A DNA stretch of 50,898 nt, from the NCBI GenBank assembly GCA_902574355.1, contig CACGNN010000009.1, positions 1 to 50,898 on the forward strand, read 5' to 3'. Below the pieces are notes generated by a model. The model did not search any database. It was not told where the DNA came from and saw only the letters and a program-made list of their open reading frames with translations. The stretch is from an uncultured SAR86 cluster bacterium. GTDB taxonomy: Bacteria > Pseudomonadota > Gammaproteobacteria > Magnimaribacterales > Magnimaribacteraceae. The translations under genes and the position numbers were made by a program. Positions 40,076 through 46,554 of this stretch are shown here, piece by piece (the stretch's first letter is position 1; every line of letters begins with the position of its first letter).

Positions 40076-40220
40076 ATTTATCTCCTAAAACTTTAATTTC
40101 ATATTAGACGAATAATGAAAAAGAGGGAAATTCAAAGCAAAAGAAACTTAAAAATATATTTAATAATTTTTTTCTTTACTACTATACAAATTATTTATAT
40201 GTGTATATAATTGTCATCAA

Positions 40221-40280
40221 TATCTAGAGACGTTTAATTCTCCCCAGAAAAAAACCTCTCCAAGGTGAACAATCTAGATA
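40221..40280. repeat. Structured repeat, copy 1
   Basis: The core 40226-40266 (41 nt) starts AGAGACGTTTAATTCTCCCC, then A7 after CAG, and ends CCTCTCCAAGGT. It is closed by TATCTAGA (40221-40228) pairing with TCTAGATA (40273-40280), six bases after the core end. Inner short pairings are possible: GAGA with TCTC, and ACCT with AGGT around CTCCA. Which strand is transcribed is undecided. Confidence 0.75.
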
Positions 40281-40284
40281 AAAA

Positions 40285-40343
40285 AAACTGAGAGACGTTT
40301 AATTCTCCCCAGAAAAACCTCTCCAAGGTAACTCACTCAGTTT
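40285..40343. repeat. Structured repeat, copy 2
   Basis: The core 40291-40329 (39 nt) is identical to copy 1 except for A5 instead of A7. It is closed by AAACTGAG (40285-40292) and CTCAGTTT (40336-40343), again six bases after the core end. The stem sequence differs from copy 1 at five or more pairs, yet pairing is kept. On the minus strand this stem runs into a T tract (complement of 40280-40287), like an intrinsic terminator. Confidence 0.75.
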
Positions 40344-40347
40344 GCAA

Positions 40348-40407
40348 AGTAAGATGTAGCTTTCACCCAATTTTAGCTGCACAAGCGAAATCAAGCTACA
40401 TCTTACT
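40348..40407. ncRNA. Perfect 15-bp hairpin with 30-nt loop, putative structured RNA or leader
   Basis: AGTAAGATGTAGCTT (40348-40362) pairs without mismatch with AAGCTACATCTTACT (40393-40407). The 30-base loop contains CCCAA (40366-40370) and GCTGC (40376-40380), complementary to TTGGG (40443-40447) and GCAGC (40449-40453) in the loop of the next stem. A stem this long without mismatch is unlikely by chance. No T tract follows on the plus strand, so it is not a plain terminator there. Confidence 0.6.
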
Positions 40408-40412
40408 ATCTA

Positions 40413-40511
40413 TGGTAGGTGAGGCTTTAAATTAATTTTTGGTTGGGCGCAGCAAAAAGTTTCATCTACCACCCTATTTCTCACGAGAAAGGAAAAAGAA
40501 GGTAAAATAGG
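40413..40511 (+). promoter_or_regulatory. Putative 5' leader stems before the 2-hydroxyacid dehydrogenase gene
   Basis: TGGTAGGTGA (40413-40422) pairs with TCATCTACCA (40462-40471) with one G-U. CCTATTT (40473-40479) pairs with AAATAGG (40505-40511), just before ATG 40514 and enclosing the AAGAAGG ribosome site. The alternative TTTCT/AGAAA hairpin (40477-40490) uses the same TTT, so the two are mutually exclusive. This could control translation, but only the pairings are observed. Confidence 0.4.
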
Positions 40512-40513
40512 AT

Positions 40514-41431
40514 ATGCCTAATATATTCATATCAACCATCCCATTCGCTTCAAACAATCAAGATTCCCTCAAACTCCTTGAAGAAAATGACCTAAATTAT
40601 TTAATTAATCCTTTGGGTAGAAAGGTAACTGAAGATGAAATCAAAGAATATATCAAAAATTGCGATGGCTTAATCGCCGGCACTGAACCTCTTAATGAGT
40701 ATGTTTTGTCAAGTGCAAAAAATTTAAAAGTGATTTCTAGGGTAGGTGTCGGAACAGATAACATTGATTTAGATTATGCGAAGAGCAAAAACATCTCAAT
40801 TGAAATAACAAGAAATGGTCCAACAAATTCAGTTGCTGAATACACATTATCTTTAATATTAAATGTTTTGAAAGGCATACATCAATCTAACACTCTGCTT
40901 AAAAAGGGAATTTGGCAAAAATCAATAGGTAGAGAAATATCTGAATGTAATATTGGTATCGTGGGAGCGGGAAACATAGGTCAAAAGTTATTAGATCTCT
41001 TAGATGTTTTTAAACCTAGGTCTATTTATTATTTCGATCCTTATATTGATCTTAATAGTTCAATATTTAAAAAAACCACCTTACAAAATTTGTTAAAAGA
41101 ATCAGATATTATCTCATTACATCTTCCACTTACAAAAGATACAGAGTCTTTAATATCAAAAAAGGAAATAGAACTCATGAAGAGTAATTCATTCATCATC
41201 AATACTTCTAGAGGCGCTATTATAGACGAATACTATTTGATCGAAGCCCTCGAAAACAAAAAAATTGGAGGCGCTGCATTAGATGTATACGCCGAAGAGC
41301 CTTATTTCGGAAAGCTTACGAAACTAGATAACTGTCTTGTCACGCCTCACAATGCCCCAATGACCGAAAAAGCAAGAGAATCAATGGAATATGACGCGGT
41401 TTTGAATGTGATTAAGCATTTAACATCTTAG
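40514..41431 (+). CDS. D-isomer-specific 2-hydroxyacid dehydrogenase
   Basis: 305 residues, close to the minimal two-domain size. The substrate domain is interrupted by the NAD domain starting at NIGIVGAGNIGQKLLDLL (about residue 145). Catalytic residues are all visible: Arg in FIINTSRGAIIDE, Glu in ALDVYAEEP and His in LVTPHNAPM. VGVGTDNIDLDYA fits phosphoglycerate- or glyoxylate-type members. It lacks an ACT domain, so it is not a typical regulated SerA. The long structured leader upstream suggests tight control. The four-base overlap at its end with the convergent gene shows compact packing. Confidence 0.9.
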   Translation: MPNIFISTIPFASNNQDSLKLLEENDLNYLINPLGRKVTEDEIKEYIKNCDGLIAGTEPLNEYVLSSAKNLKVISRVGVGTDNIDLDYAKSKNISIEITRNGPTNSVAEYTLSLILNVLKGIHQSNTLLKKGIWQKSIGREISECNIGIVGAGNIGQKLLDLLDVFKPRSIYYFDPYIDLNSSIFKKTTLQNLLKESDIISLHLPLTKDTESLISKKEIELMKSNSFIINTSRGAIIDEYYLIEALENKKIGGAALDVYAEEPYFGKLTKLDNCLVTPHNAPMTEKARESMEYDAVLNVIKHLTS

Positions 41432-42093
41432 TCATGGATTAAGATCAAACCTTCGTGATGTATTAATTTATTATGGATACTCTTACCTTTTTTAAGCTCA
41501 TTAAGAGCCTCTTTTTTATTCTCTCCGATCGAAACTAAAACTATCAATTTCGAGAGCATTAAATTTTCAATACTAAAACTTATCCTTTTTTTTGGTAATT
41601 TTGGTGCATTTTCTGTGTAACAAAATTTATTTTCTTCTAAAAAAACAGAATTACTGAAGTGCCCAGCAAGATGACCATCTTCTCCAAGGCTAAGGAAGGT
41701 GATGTCAAATTTATCAAAAGGTAGTTTTCTAAGAGTCTCAGAAAAATCAGTTAACTTTTTACCCGAGATCGAATTAGGAAAGAAGTGATTTTTCTCGATA
41801 TCATATCCCGGACATTTTTTTAAATGATGGATAATTTTAGTTTGTATGATTTCATTGTCACTACATTCTAATCTTTCATCAGTTTGAAAAATTGACCACA
41901 TTGATATATTCATTTTTCTTTCTTCAATCTTCTTTAATAAACTTAACCCAAAGTTCCCTCCCGTAAAACATATTTTTGACTCTGATTTGATTTGAGAAAG
42001 GTAAGATAAAGATATTTCTAGAGCCTCTTGAATATTGTTAACTTTTATTTTTTTCAATTTTTTGCTCTCAATGAGGTGGAGAAATATCCACAA
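41428..42093 (-). CDS. pgl: 6-phosphogluconolactonase family protein
   Basis: 221 residues. The DevB-type signature FLSLGEDGHLAGHFSNSVFL (GxDGHxAS-like) is at about residue 140, preceded by MWSIFQTDERLECSDNE, which matches the family's F-x-DER block. SESKICFTGGNFGLSLLKKI is the sugar-phosphate-binding start. The enzyme hydrolyses 6-phosphogluconolactone in the oxidative pentose phosphate pathway; zwf is not in the window. The first 15 residues may be overcalled, as no conserved residue lies there. Confidence 0.82.
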   Translation of the reverse strand: MWIFLHLIESKKLKKIKVNNIQEALEISLSYLSQIKSESKICFTGGNFGLSLLKKIEERKMNISMWSIFQTDERLECSDNEIIQTKIIHHLKKCPGYDIEKNHFFPNSISGKKLTDFSETLRKLPFDKFDITFLSLGEDGHLAGHFSNSVFLEENKFCYTENAPKLPKKRISFSIENLMLSKLIVLVSIGENKKEALNELKKGKSIHNKLIHHEGLILIHD

Positions 42094-42171: not shown

Positions 42172-42591
42172 ATGAAATCAGACCAAGCAATTCTAGAAAT
42201 GTTTAAAGCTAATTCAGCTCCTTGTACAGATACTCTTAGAGCAGAAGTGATTAAGTTTTCGTCTAATCCCCCTAGGATAGAGATGGAATTTGAAGCTGTT
42301 TATGAATTTACACATTCTGACGGTCAAGTGGTTCAGGGTGGTTTTGTAACAGGCATGCTCGATGCTCCAATGGCTCATCTTTTGATGGGTTTACTTGATT
42401 TTCAGGTAATCCCTATGACATTAGATATAAATGTTAGTTTTTTGTCACCTGCGCGTCAGGGGAAATTGGTTGCTGTAGCAGAAGTTCTACAGCTAGGAAA
42501 AAGCACTGCCTTCATGACAAGTAAACTCCATCAAGAGGGAAATCTTGTTGCCAGTTCAACTTCTACTGTGAGATTAGTTCCGACTAAATAA
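42172..42591 (+). CDS. PaaI-type hotdog thioesterase
   Basis: 139 residues, a single hotdog domain. HSDGQVVQGGFVTGMLDAPM followed by AHLLMGLL is the helix and catalytic region of PaaI-like thioesterases, and TLDINVSFLSPARQGKLVAV is the characteristic dimer-interface strand. Members hydrolyse acyl- or aryl-CoA thioesters. It is transcribed towards the convergent acyl-CoA dehydrogenase gene, four bases away. The substrate is unknown. Confidence 0.88.
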   Translation: MKSDQAILEMFKANSAPCTDTLRAEVIKFSSNPPRIEMEFEAVYEFTHSDGQVVQGGFVTGMLDAPMAHLLMGLLDFQVIPMTLDINVSFLSPARQGKLVAVAEVLQLGKSTAFMTSKLHQEGNLVASSTSTVRLVPTK

Positions 42592-44676: not shown

Positions 44677-44697
44677 ATTAAAAAATTAGGGGAGAAA

Positions 44698-46554
44698 ATG
44701 AAAAAAATAATCGCCTTAGGATCCTTCTTGGCTCTCATTTACGGATGTGGAAGCACAAATGAAGAAGACTTACTGAGAAATATTACGCAAGGACAATTGA
44801 TAGGCGTAGAAGCCAATAATAATACATATGCATGGAAAGGAATTCCTTTTGCGCAACCTCCATTAGAGGAATTAAGATGGAAGGCTCCCTTAGCTCCATT
44901 GAAGTTTGATTCAATATTTGATGCCTCAAAATTTGCTGACATATGTTTTCAAAGAGATGGGGTGATGACTGGAAATGAAGGCGGATGGTCAGGATCAGAG
45001 GATTGTTTGTATCTGAATGTCTGGACACCCGATTGGTCTGCAGAAGATGTAAAAAATCAAAAAGCGCCTGTAATGATGTGGATACATGGAGGAGGAAATA
45101 CCATTGGTTCTGCTGACACATATGATCCATCTAATATAGTCTCAAAACATAATTTAATCGTAGTTACAGTTCAGTACAGGATGTCTAATTTAGGGTGGTT
45201 TAGGCATCCTTCACTCAGACAAGAAAATTCTTCTGAAGAGGATAAATCAGGTAATTTTGGGACCTTAGATAACATAATGGCCCTTAAATGGATAAGCGAA
45301 AATATACAACATTTTGGAGGAGATCGAGATAATGTAACTATTTATGGTGAGTCGGCTGGTGGTCATAATGTAGTAGCACTATATGCCTCTCCCATAGCAG
45401 AGGGCCTATTTCATAAGGCTATTGTTCAAAGCGGGATACTCTCTCATTCTTCAGTAAATGATGCTGAGTCTTACTATCCAGAAAGTGGTATTTCTGGAAT
45501 ACAAAGCTCAAAAGAAGTAATCAATAGACTTATGTTAAGTGATGGCACTGTTGAAAGTCTAAAGGAAGGCAGGGTTAAACAGGACTCAATGGATTTAAAG
45601 GATCTAGAAAGTTATTTAAGAGCCAAATCACCAGAAGAGCTATTAATAGCTTATTCGGATGCGAGACCAAAAAAAGGTGGTATGACGAGAGCTTTTAATG
45701 ATGGTTATGTAATAAGAAAAGAAGGTATTTACGAAACTTTTGTAAATGACAAGCTATCAAGAGTACCCATTATGCTCGGTACAACCAGGTATGAAACCAA
45801 ATTATTCAATATGCGAAATCCTGACTTTGTTAAATGGGGAGAAGGAGAGGGCTTTATCGCTAGAACGCTTTCACAATTTGGTATTGATGAGCTTCCGTTA
45901 GAAATATTAAGACCAGATTATTACAATGCAATAAATCAATATGCCTCTGATTCATGGAAAGAGAGAGCGGTTGATTCTCCGTCTCGAGATCTTATAAATA
46001 CAGGTTATAAAAGTACTTTTGCTTATAGATTTGATTGGGATGAGTTACCAAATGTTTTAGGTATGGATTTCGCAGAACTCATTGGATCAGCTCATGCCAT
46101 GGAATTATTGTTTCTATTTCCTGCCGGACTAGAAAATATAATAGTTAAAAATTTGGTTATAGAAGATCAAGAAAGTGTAACCAAATTATCTGATCAGATG
46201 ATGTCATATTGGGCAGAGTTTGCTTACTCTGGAAAACCAGGTAAGGGAAGGTCAAATGATTTACCTGAGTGGACTGCTTGGTCAGATCAGGGCAAATATA
46301 TGATTTTGGATTCTGAGTTAGACCAAGGCCTTATCATGTCAAATGATGAAATTACTAAAAGTTCAATTGTAAGTAATTTAGAAAAGGATACTCGATTAAC
46401 TTTAGTAGAGAAGTGTGAATCACTTTTTGCTCTCACCTACGGAGAAGATCTATCACAGGAAACATTCGATGGTTTTAGTGACGGGTATTGTTTATCATTG
46501 GATTATTCAGAGTTACTTAAAAGGATTGAAAATAGAGGAGAAGATGATGACTAA
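44698..46554 (+). CDS. Type B carboxylesterase, predicted lipoprotein
   Basis: 618 residues. The N-terminus KKIIALGSFLALIYGC is a lipoprotein signal with lipobox LIYGC, so it should be lipid-anchored in the periplasm or outer membrane. AWKGIPFAQPPLEELRWKAP and SEDCLYLNVW are the type B start; the nucleophile elbow is VTIYGESAGGHNVV (Ser at about 222), and a His in SAHAMELLFLFP completes the triad region. It hydrolyses carboxylic esters, and the natural substrate is unknown. A GGGG-rich ribosome site precedes ATG 44698, and its end overlaps the next gene. Confidence 0.92.
   Translation: MKKIIALGSFLALIYGCGSTNEEDLLRNITQGQLIGVEANNNTYAWKGIPFAQPPLEELRWKAPLAPLKFDSIFDASKFADICFQRDGVMTGNEGGWSGSEDCLYLNVWTPDWSAEDVKNQKAPVMMWIHGGGNTIGSADTYDPSNIVSKHNLIVVTVQYRMSNLGWFRHPSLRQENSSEEDKSGNFGTLDNIMALKWISENIQHFGGDRDNVTIYGESAGGHNVVALYASPIAEGLFHKAIVQSGILSHSSVNDAESYYPESGISGIQSSKEVINRLMLSDGTVESLKEGRVKQDSMDLKDLESYLRAKSPEELLIAYSDARPKKGGMTRAFNDGYVIRKEGIYETFVNDKLSRVPIMLGTTRYETKLFNMRNPDFVKWGEGEGFIARTLSQFGIDELPLEILRPDYYNAINQYASDSWKERAVDSPSRDLINTGYKSTFAYRFDWDELPNVLGMDFAELIGSAHAMELLFLFPAGLENIIVKNLVIEDQESVTKLSDQMMSYWAEFAYSGKPGKGRSNDLPEWTAWSDQGKYMILDSELDQGLIMSNDEITKSSIVSNLEKDTRLTLVEKCESLFALTYGEDLSQETFDGFSDGYCLSLDYSELLKRIENRGEDDD

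Follow-up and report, generated by a model that had tools for sequence, protein, structure and literature searches.

The window, i.e. the whole stretch of 50,898 nucleotides analysed here from an uncultured SAR86 cluster bacterium, almost certainly carries a selected, structured RNA on its plus strand that is absent from Rfam 15. On one side of the RNA gene lies a divergent glutathione-transferase-like gene and on the other a 2-hydroxyacid-dehydrogenase-like gene; the RNA gene itself comprises two tandem modules with C-rich loops, followed by a third and a fourth hairpin (Table 1). SAR86 bacteria are abundant in the surface ocean and for the most part uncultured, and Hfq was not found across 203 genomes of their order (see below). 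An RNA supported by covariation and seen in this clade alone, together with the models that detect it, provides a concrete handle on any regulation by RNA in SAR86, and existing ocean metatranscriptomes can be mapped against it directly.

At the gathering score, Rfam 15 reported only a tRNA in the window and only a tRNA in nine relative loci, while a search of 40076–40513 at E values up to 10 returned two chance-level matches. Open-access literature on SAR86 small RNAs, Hfq and marine noncoding RNAs, surveyed by title or abstract, contained no report of the RNA, and a term search of PMC5069720 found no mention of SAR86. The RNA appears to be an uncatalogued SAR86 small RNA with a well-conserved fold, and it may be among the unnamed groups of the 2009 ocean small-RNA and IMES studies.

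Table 1. Positions of the RNA and its component features in the window
Feature	Position	Strand	Description
Promoter-like stretch	40180–40211	+	TACTATACAAATTATTTATA then TATAAT; from scan and conservation in relatives
Whole RNA	40218–40480	+	About 260 nt; from alignments and models; both ends predicted (5' end from the -10 element, 3' end from the last hairpin)
Module 1	40219–40280	+	Closing stem TATCTAGA 40221–40228 / TCTAGATA 40273–40280 (8 bp here, as many as 10 in relatives) round C-rich loop
Module 1 C-rich motifs	40238–40249; 40254–40266	+	TTCTCCCCAGAA; ACCTCTCCAAGGT; inner hairpins possible, unproven
Module 2	40285–40343	+	Closing stem AAACTGAG 40285–40292 / CTCAGTTT 40336–40343 differs from module 1; loop the same
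Module 2 C-rich motifs	40303–40314; 40317–40329	+	TTCTCCCCAGAA; ACCTCTCCAAGGT
Third hairpin	40348–40407	+	15-bp perfect arms 40348–40362 / 40393–40407; CACCCA in loop at 40364–40369
Fourth hairpin	40413–40471	+	Arms 40413–40428 / 40456–40471 (16 pairs) round GGTTGGGCGCAGC at 40441–40453

Tandem modules and their closing stems

An earlier, sequence-only reading of this DNA had described two cores, at 40226–40266 and 40291–40329, which are the same but for the length of one A run and are each closed by an 8-bp stem, and had taken them for a selected, structured RNA in tandem copies. Both copies were recovered with 27 identical nt and a spacing of 65 nt; the two stems pair where they had been placed, the 3' strand begins six bases after the core in each copy, and five of the eight stem pairs are changed on both sides. 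A small correction concerns the opening bases of each core, which already lie within the stem. The second core has no other match in the window at up to three mismatches (0 expected), the first core not being counted in this search because its A run sets it apart from the second.

The closing stems covary in homologues, as expected of a selected RNA structure. Homologues that keep the core while their flanking stems fail to pair had been named as the outcome that would speak against such a structure; instead, closing-stem cells pair in 93.3% of cases among 34 modules and in 94.2% among 22 sequences of a second SAR86 family. Six of the ten pairs of the closing stem are changed on both sides among the 34 distinct modules (18 loci), as are six of seven in the 22 second-family sequences. 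The covariation score of the closing stem in the 34 modules was reached by no shuffle, the shuffles taking no account of relatedness, and the number of further pair types was not above that of shuffles in the 34 modules or in the 22 second-family sequences. Part of this variation merely separates first copies from second copies, so that the covarying events are fewer than the cells.

These figures are defined by the alignments used. Alignment A1 comprises 18 sequences and A2 the 34 modules drawn from them; both omit three loci at contig ends (L015, L023 and L034), the divergent L028 (genome G010), the one-module L030, L033 (a duplicate of L024) and four genomes of genus g2 that were found later. 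Alignment A3 comprises 20 sequences and omits L023, L028, L030, L033 and g2, while A4 holds 22 of 27 second-family sequences, four duplicates and one locus without the core being omitted; its rows L091 and L129 are off by one column at the stem.

Within the loops, the motifs CUCCC(C)...CUCUCC are near-invariant in both families while the closing stems change. Conserved C-rich motifs are thus carried on a structured RNA, as in chaperone-independent sRNAs with C-rich loops of the 6C/B11 and LhrC type. The putative inner hairpins TTCT/AGAA and ACCT/AGGT either never vary or only break, which gives them no covariation support, and ACCT/AGGT has no counterpart in the second family; for these reasons they are regarded as unproven. 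The C-rich motifs are likely unpaired within a closed loop, inner hairpins being possible.

The 3' domain and the strand under selection

The sequence-only reading had ended with the second module and so lacked the 3' half of the RNA (approximately 40346–40480), which is likewise conserved and covarying, with 13 of 37 pairs changed on both sides. The GGTTGGGCGCAGC element of the fourth hairpin is nearly invariant, and a UUGGGC-containing sequence is conserved in most members. An intramolecular CCCA/UGGG pairing was also considered and dropped, no covariation being seen when judged by eye.

While the modules alone are uninformative as to the strand (seven G-U and five A-C cells), the 3' domain read on the plus strand holds 122 G-U cells against two A-C cells, indicating that the plus strand is under selection. 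This bears on the earlier suggestion that the minus strand, with GGA motifs in the cores, might be an RNA bound by CsrA, a suggestion that we consider very unlikely indeed. It would accord with the four to eight GGA per RNA on the minus strand (18 sequences), with the CsrA gene present in the window's genome and with one promoter-like and one terminator-like match on that strand. However, the G-U excess and a promoter-like sequence conserved on the plus strand both argue against it, and the fold z-score is weaker on the minus strand (-1.76 for 40215–40345) than on the plus strand (-2.92 for the same interval and -3.48 for 40200–40513).

In the promoter-like stretch, TATACA (40183–40188) is separated by a 17-nt spacer from TATAAT (40206–40211) on the plus strand. 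The promoter scan by itself was weak, returning three promoter-like sites against 1.4 expected; the stretch carries weight because it is conserved, being gap-free in the aligned relatives that reach that far and also kept in one-module genera. As TATAAT ends at 40211, the RNA would start near 40218, at the first closing stem. At the other end, a T run 3' of the last hairpin is weak in the window and clear in several relatives, and a terminator scan, whose range covers loops of 3–8 nt only, reported none on the plus strand. From its sequence, the tandem repeat looks like the 5' half of one plus-strand transcription unit, and a DNA search found no second copy of the RNA in the window's own genome.

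Distribution and module number

Homologues were detected in 26 of the 35 genomes of the window's SAR86 family by both a model of the module (R1) and a model of the 3' domain (R2); the nine genomes without an R1 or R2 match have completeness values of 63 to 86%. In a DNA search, 24 of these 35 genomes were matched, G022 and G004 only by short, chance-like matches. Some model matches fell in a second SAR86 family, and a model built from that family (R3) matches 36 of the 40 genomes it contains, each at an E value of 1.3e-9 or lower. R3 is without a match in G039, G049 (94% complete), G052 and G059. Among the named contigs of the second family are those of the AG-339-G14 and AG-337 genomes. R3 also matched G014 at its known module, and G020 away from its RNA.

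Families 3 and 4, which account for the other 128 genomes of the order, gave weak model matches only and no convincing copy. The weak R1 and R2 matches inspected there (two of two and five of five, respectively) were something else, and of the five inspected among eight weak R3 matches, four lay in long open frames, one did not and none had the core; the other three weak R3 matches are those in G124, G196 and G202 (E 0.07–0.10). A looser sequence pattern matched 87 of the 203 genomes of the order; among 20 stretches inspected, two were the RNA, 17 lay inside open frames and one (G009) was frameless but unlike the RNA, the inspection covering 13 of 36 matches in families 3 and 4. The exact pattern, which would miss divergent members such as one-module genera with differing motifs, identified 35 stretches in a named genome collection (24 SAR86, five Gammaproteobacteria and six others), and 29 of them were recognised as the RNA, the pattern occurring twice in 16 and once in 13. 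The other six, from Omnitrophota, Hyphomicrobiales, Campylobacterales, Ignavibacteria, Alphaproteobacteria and Kapaibacterium, were unrelated by eye. No viral contig matched the strict pattern. Judged by these matches, the RNA has so far been found only in SAR86. In one assembly (G008), contigs C17 and C18 carry near-identical RNA loci, perhaps an assembly duplicate.

Two modules are present in the window's genus, in every one of its 15 genomes with a match, and in genera g4 and g6, and one module in genera g2 and g7 and in the second family; in three genomes of g6, CUCUCC has been lost from the first copy and CUCCCC retained. The RNA thus offers a natural case of a loop module that occurs once or twice within an otherwise similar RNA. 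Constant loops repeated on changing stems, a module number that varies between genera and a conserved UUGGGC element would also suit a protein sponge, in which an RNA-binding protein would be sequestered by the repeated C-rich loops or by the UUGGGC hairpin, in the way that CsrB captures CsrA. We regard such a sponge as improbable, there being no candidate protein, and the six closest RNAs having no GGA, the signal for CsrA, on the plus strand, with one to four in the other 12 aligned.

Relation to known RNAs

Several known RNAs share features with the SAR86 RNA. The 6C RNA consists of two stem-loops, each with six or more Cs. In mycobacteria, C-rich loops are described as pairing with G tracts beside ribosome-binding sites, in genomes said to be without Hfq and ProQ (PMC12395582). 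The SAR86 RNA is like the mycobacterial 6C/B11 sRNA in its C-rich loops and in that Hfq was not found in the order nor ProQ in the window's genome, and unlike it in having no Rfam match, in that its pairing is predicted and in belonging to a different phylum. The Rfam 6C family itself was rejected, the loops in the window containing CCCC and CUCUCC and giving no Rfam match. In Listeria, the LhrC sRNAs are reported to carry redundant UCCC/CU-rich sites in one RNA and not to need Hfq (PMC4132741). They differ in that Listeria has five gene copies, whereas the modules are repeated inside one SAR86 RNA, and their sequence is unrelated as far as compared by eye.

UC-rich anti-Shine-Dalgarno regions and a tandem arrangement are described for the NmsR/sibling sRNAs of Neisseria (PMC5362039). 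Those are two separate transcripts of three stem-loops each, in contrast to two modules in apparently one SAR86 transcript. Loops of the CCUCC type are found in the cuckoo RNAs. These CcsR/cuckoo RNAs of alphaproteobacteria are related small RNAs in tandem (PMC10253847); they differ in being processed from a precursor that they share with a DUF1127 protein gene, and belong to a different class. The two genes flanking the RNA in the window are GST-like and hydroxyacid-dehydrogenase-like. CsrB and CsrC are similar in that small motifs are repeated within one RNA, and differ in that their motif is GGA, for CsrA, while the SAR86 plus strand is C-rich; a CsrB/CsrC-type RNA, which requires many exposed GGA, was rejected on the plus-strand counts (0 in 6/18 and 1–4 in 12/18). 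The match to 6S RNA in this genome lies on another contig (G000:C4), and 6S RNA was therefore likewise rejected.

Chaperones, candidate targets and proposed mode of action

No Hfq was found in any of the 203 genomes of the order, including 40 nearly complete ones, in searches whose positive controls worked, and a search for ProQ in the window's genome (90.5% complete) was negative. In this respect (Hfq across the order, ProQ in the window's genome) the RNA agrees with the C-rich-loop type of sRNA. We give an even chance to the reading, made by analogy, that it is a chaperone-independent regulatory sRNA whose C-rich loops pair with G-rich sites on mRNAs. According to this proposal the RNA would act in trans, its C-rich loops making the initial contact with G-rich stretches (GGGGAG, GGAGAG). 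The sites would mainly be ribosome-binding sites, in the minority of mRNAs that have one, and pairing, with no need of Hfq or ProQ, would prevent translation or leave the mRNA open to degradation. The second module would add binding sites, and the UUGGGC hairpin may serve to stabilise the RNA, to terminate it or to dock a protein. Pairing with G-rich ribosome-binding sites is proposed because of the analogy with the mycobacterial, Listeria and Neisseria RNAs.

By duplex energy against 244 leaders, covering approximately 250 kb of one genome, none of four RNA segments paired better with leaders than with coding sequence. The pairing of segment B with leaders was stronger than that of shuffled versions of this segment (mean -7.25 versus -5.81, sd 0.54), an excess expected of any anti-Shine-Dalgarno-like sequence. 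Shine-Dalgarno motifs are rare in the window plus 200 kb of contig C1, where 34 of 236 leaders contain AGGA and 28 contain GGAG. The best candidate site, GGGGAGAA, precedes the ATG of an esterase gene at 44698 (the gene start at 44686–44700 reads GGGGAGAAA-ATG) and offers eight bases complementary to the CUCCCC motif; it is kept in five of 15 genomes including the window's own, all close relatives. If the proposal holds, the RNA would work like 6C/LhrC-type RNAs, the tests run here having given no conserved target support. In relatives, as in the window, the esterase gene is located a few kilobases 3' of the RNA.

Genes adjoining the RNA

Among 24 readable loci of the window's family, the 3' neighbour is a thioesterase-like gene in 15, another gene in five and a convergent gene in four; two further loci were unreadable by script, and the genes were named by eye except for the window's own thioesterase. 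In the second family, a photolyase gene lies 3' of the RNA in 36 of 36 loci (Pfam confirmed for one) and starts approximately 95–135 nt past the core in each. The sequence-only reading had likened the repeat to tandem riboswitch aptamers, which would account for structured modules in tandem upstream of a gene. This comparison is hardly credible given the absence of an Rfam match and the varied or convergent 3' genes of the window's family; the gene context on which a riboswitch would be judged is constant only in the second family, with its photolyase.

There, a short hairpin comes after the module; it has a T-rich tract 3' of it in 22 of 36 loci and in one genus is terminator-like, with a T run and with CCC(C) in its loop. 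In 29 of 36 loci, a few bases separate the end of a UUGGGC-type hairpin from the photolyase ATG, the seven loci lacking this hairpin all belonging to one genus; in one genus the UUGGGC hairpin lies past a canonical terminator and close to the photolyase start. Such an arrangement might be read as a cis leader, in which transcription from the RNA's promoter would continue into the downstream gene (the photolyase in the second family, the thioesterase in most of the window's family) and the hairpins would attenuate it or cover its ribosome-binding site. We consider this unlikely overall. The distance to the photolyase, the hairpin placed just before its ATG, the terminator ahead of that hairpin in one genus and the frequency of the thioesterase-like gene downstream all speak for a leader, and with the photolyase 3' of the RNA in every second-family locus the RNA may have such a role in that family. 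Against it, nine of the 24 readable loci in the window's family precede other genes or a convergent gene, one second-family genus lacks the last hairpin, and the window's own RNA precedes the 2-hydroxyacid-dehydrogenase-like gene. These neighbourhoods agree best with an RNA that acts in trans and has a fixed home in each family.

As a tentative and rather doubtful extension of the trans-acting reading, SAR86, with its streamlined genomes, might possess a chaperone-free RNA regulator in which the number of modules (one or two) is an evolving dial and the UUGGGC hairpin is a protein dock or a switch shared with the photolyase, which in one family would link the RNA with light or UV damage.

In the window, the hydroxyacid-dehydrogenase-like gene and a phosphogluconolactonase-like gene on the other strand (40514–42093) separate the RNA from the thioesterase gene (42172–42591), which lies directly 3' of the RNA in most readable relatives. 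Additionally, a repeated TTATAAC ... TTTATAAC stretch, conserved across genera, was observed upstream of the RNA in second-family loci such as L076, L112, L117 and L341–L349, and may represent the binding site of a regulator.
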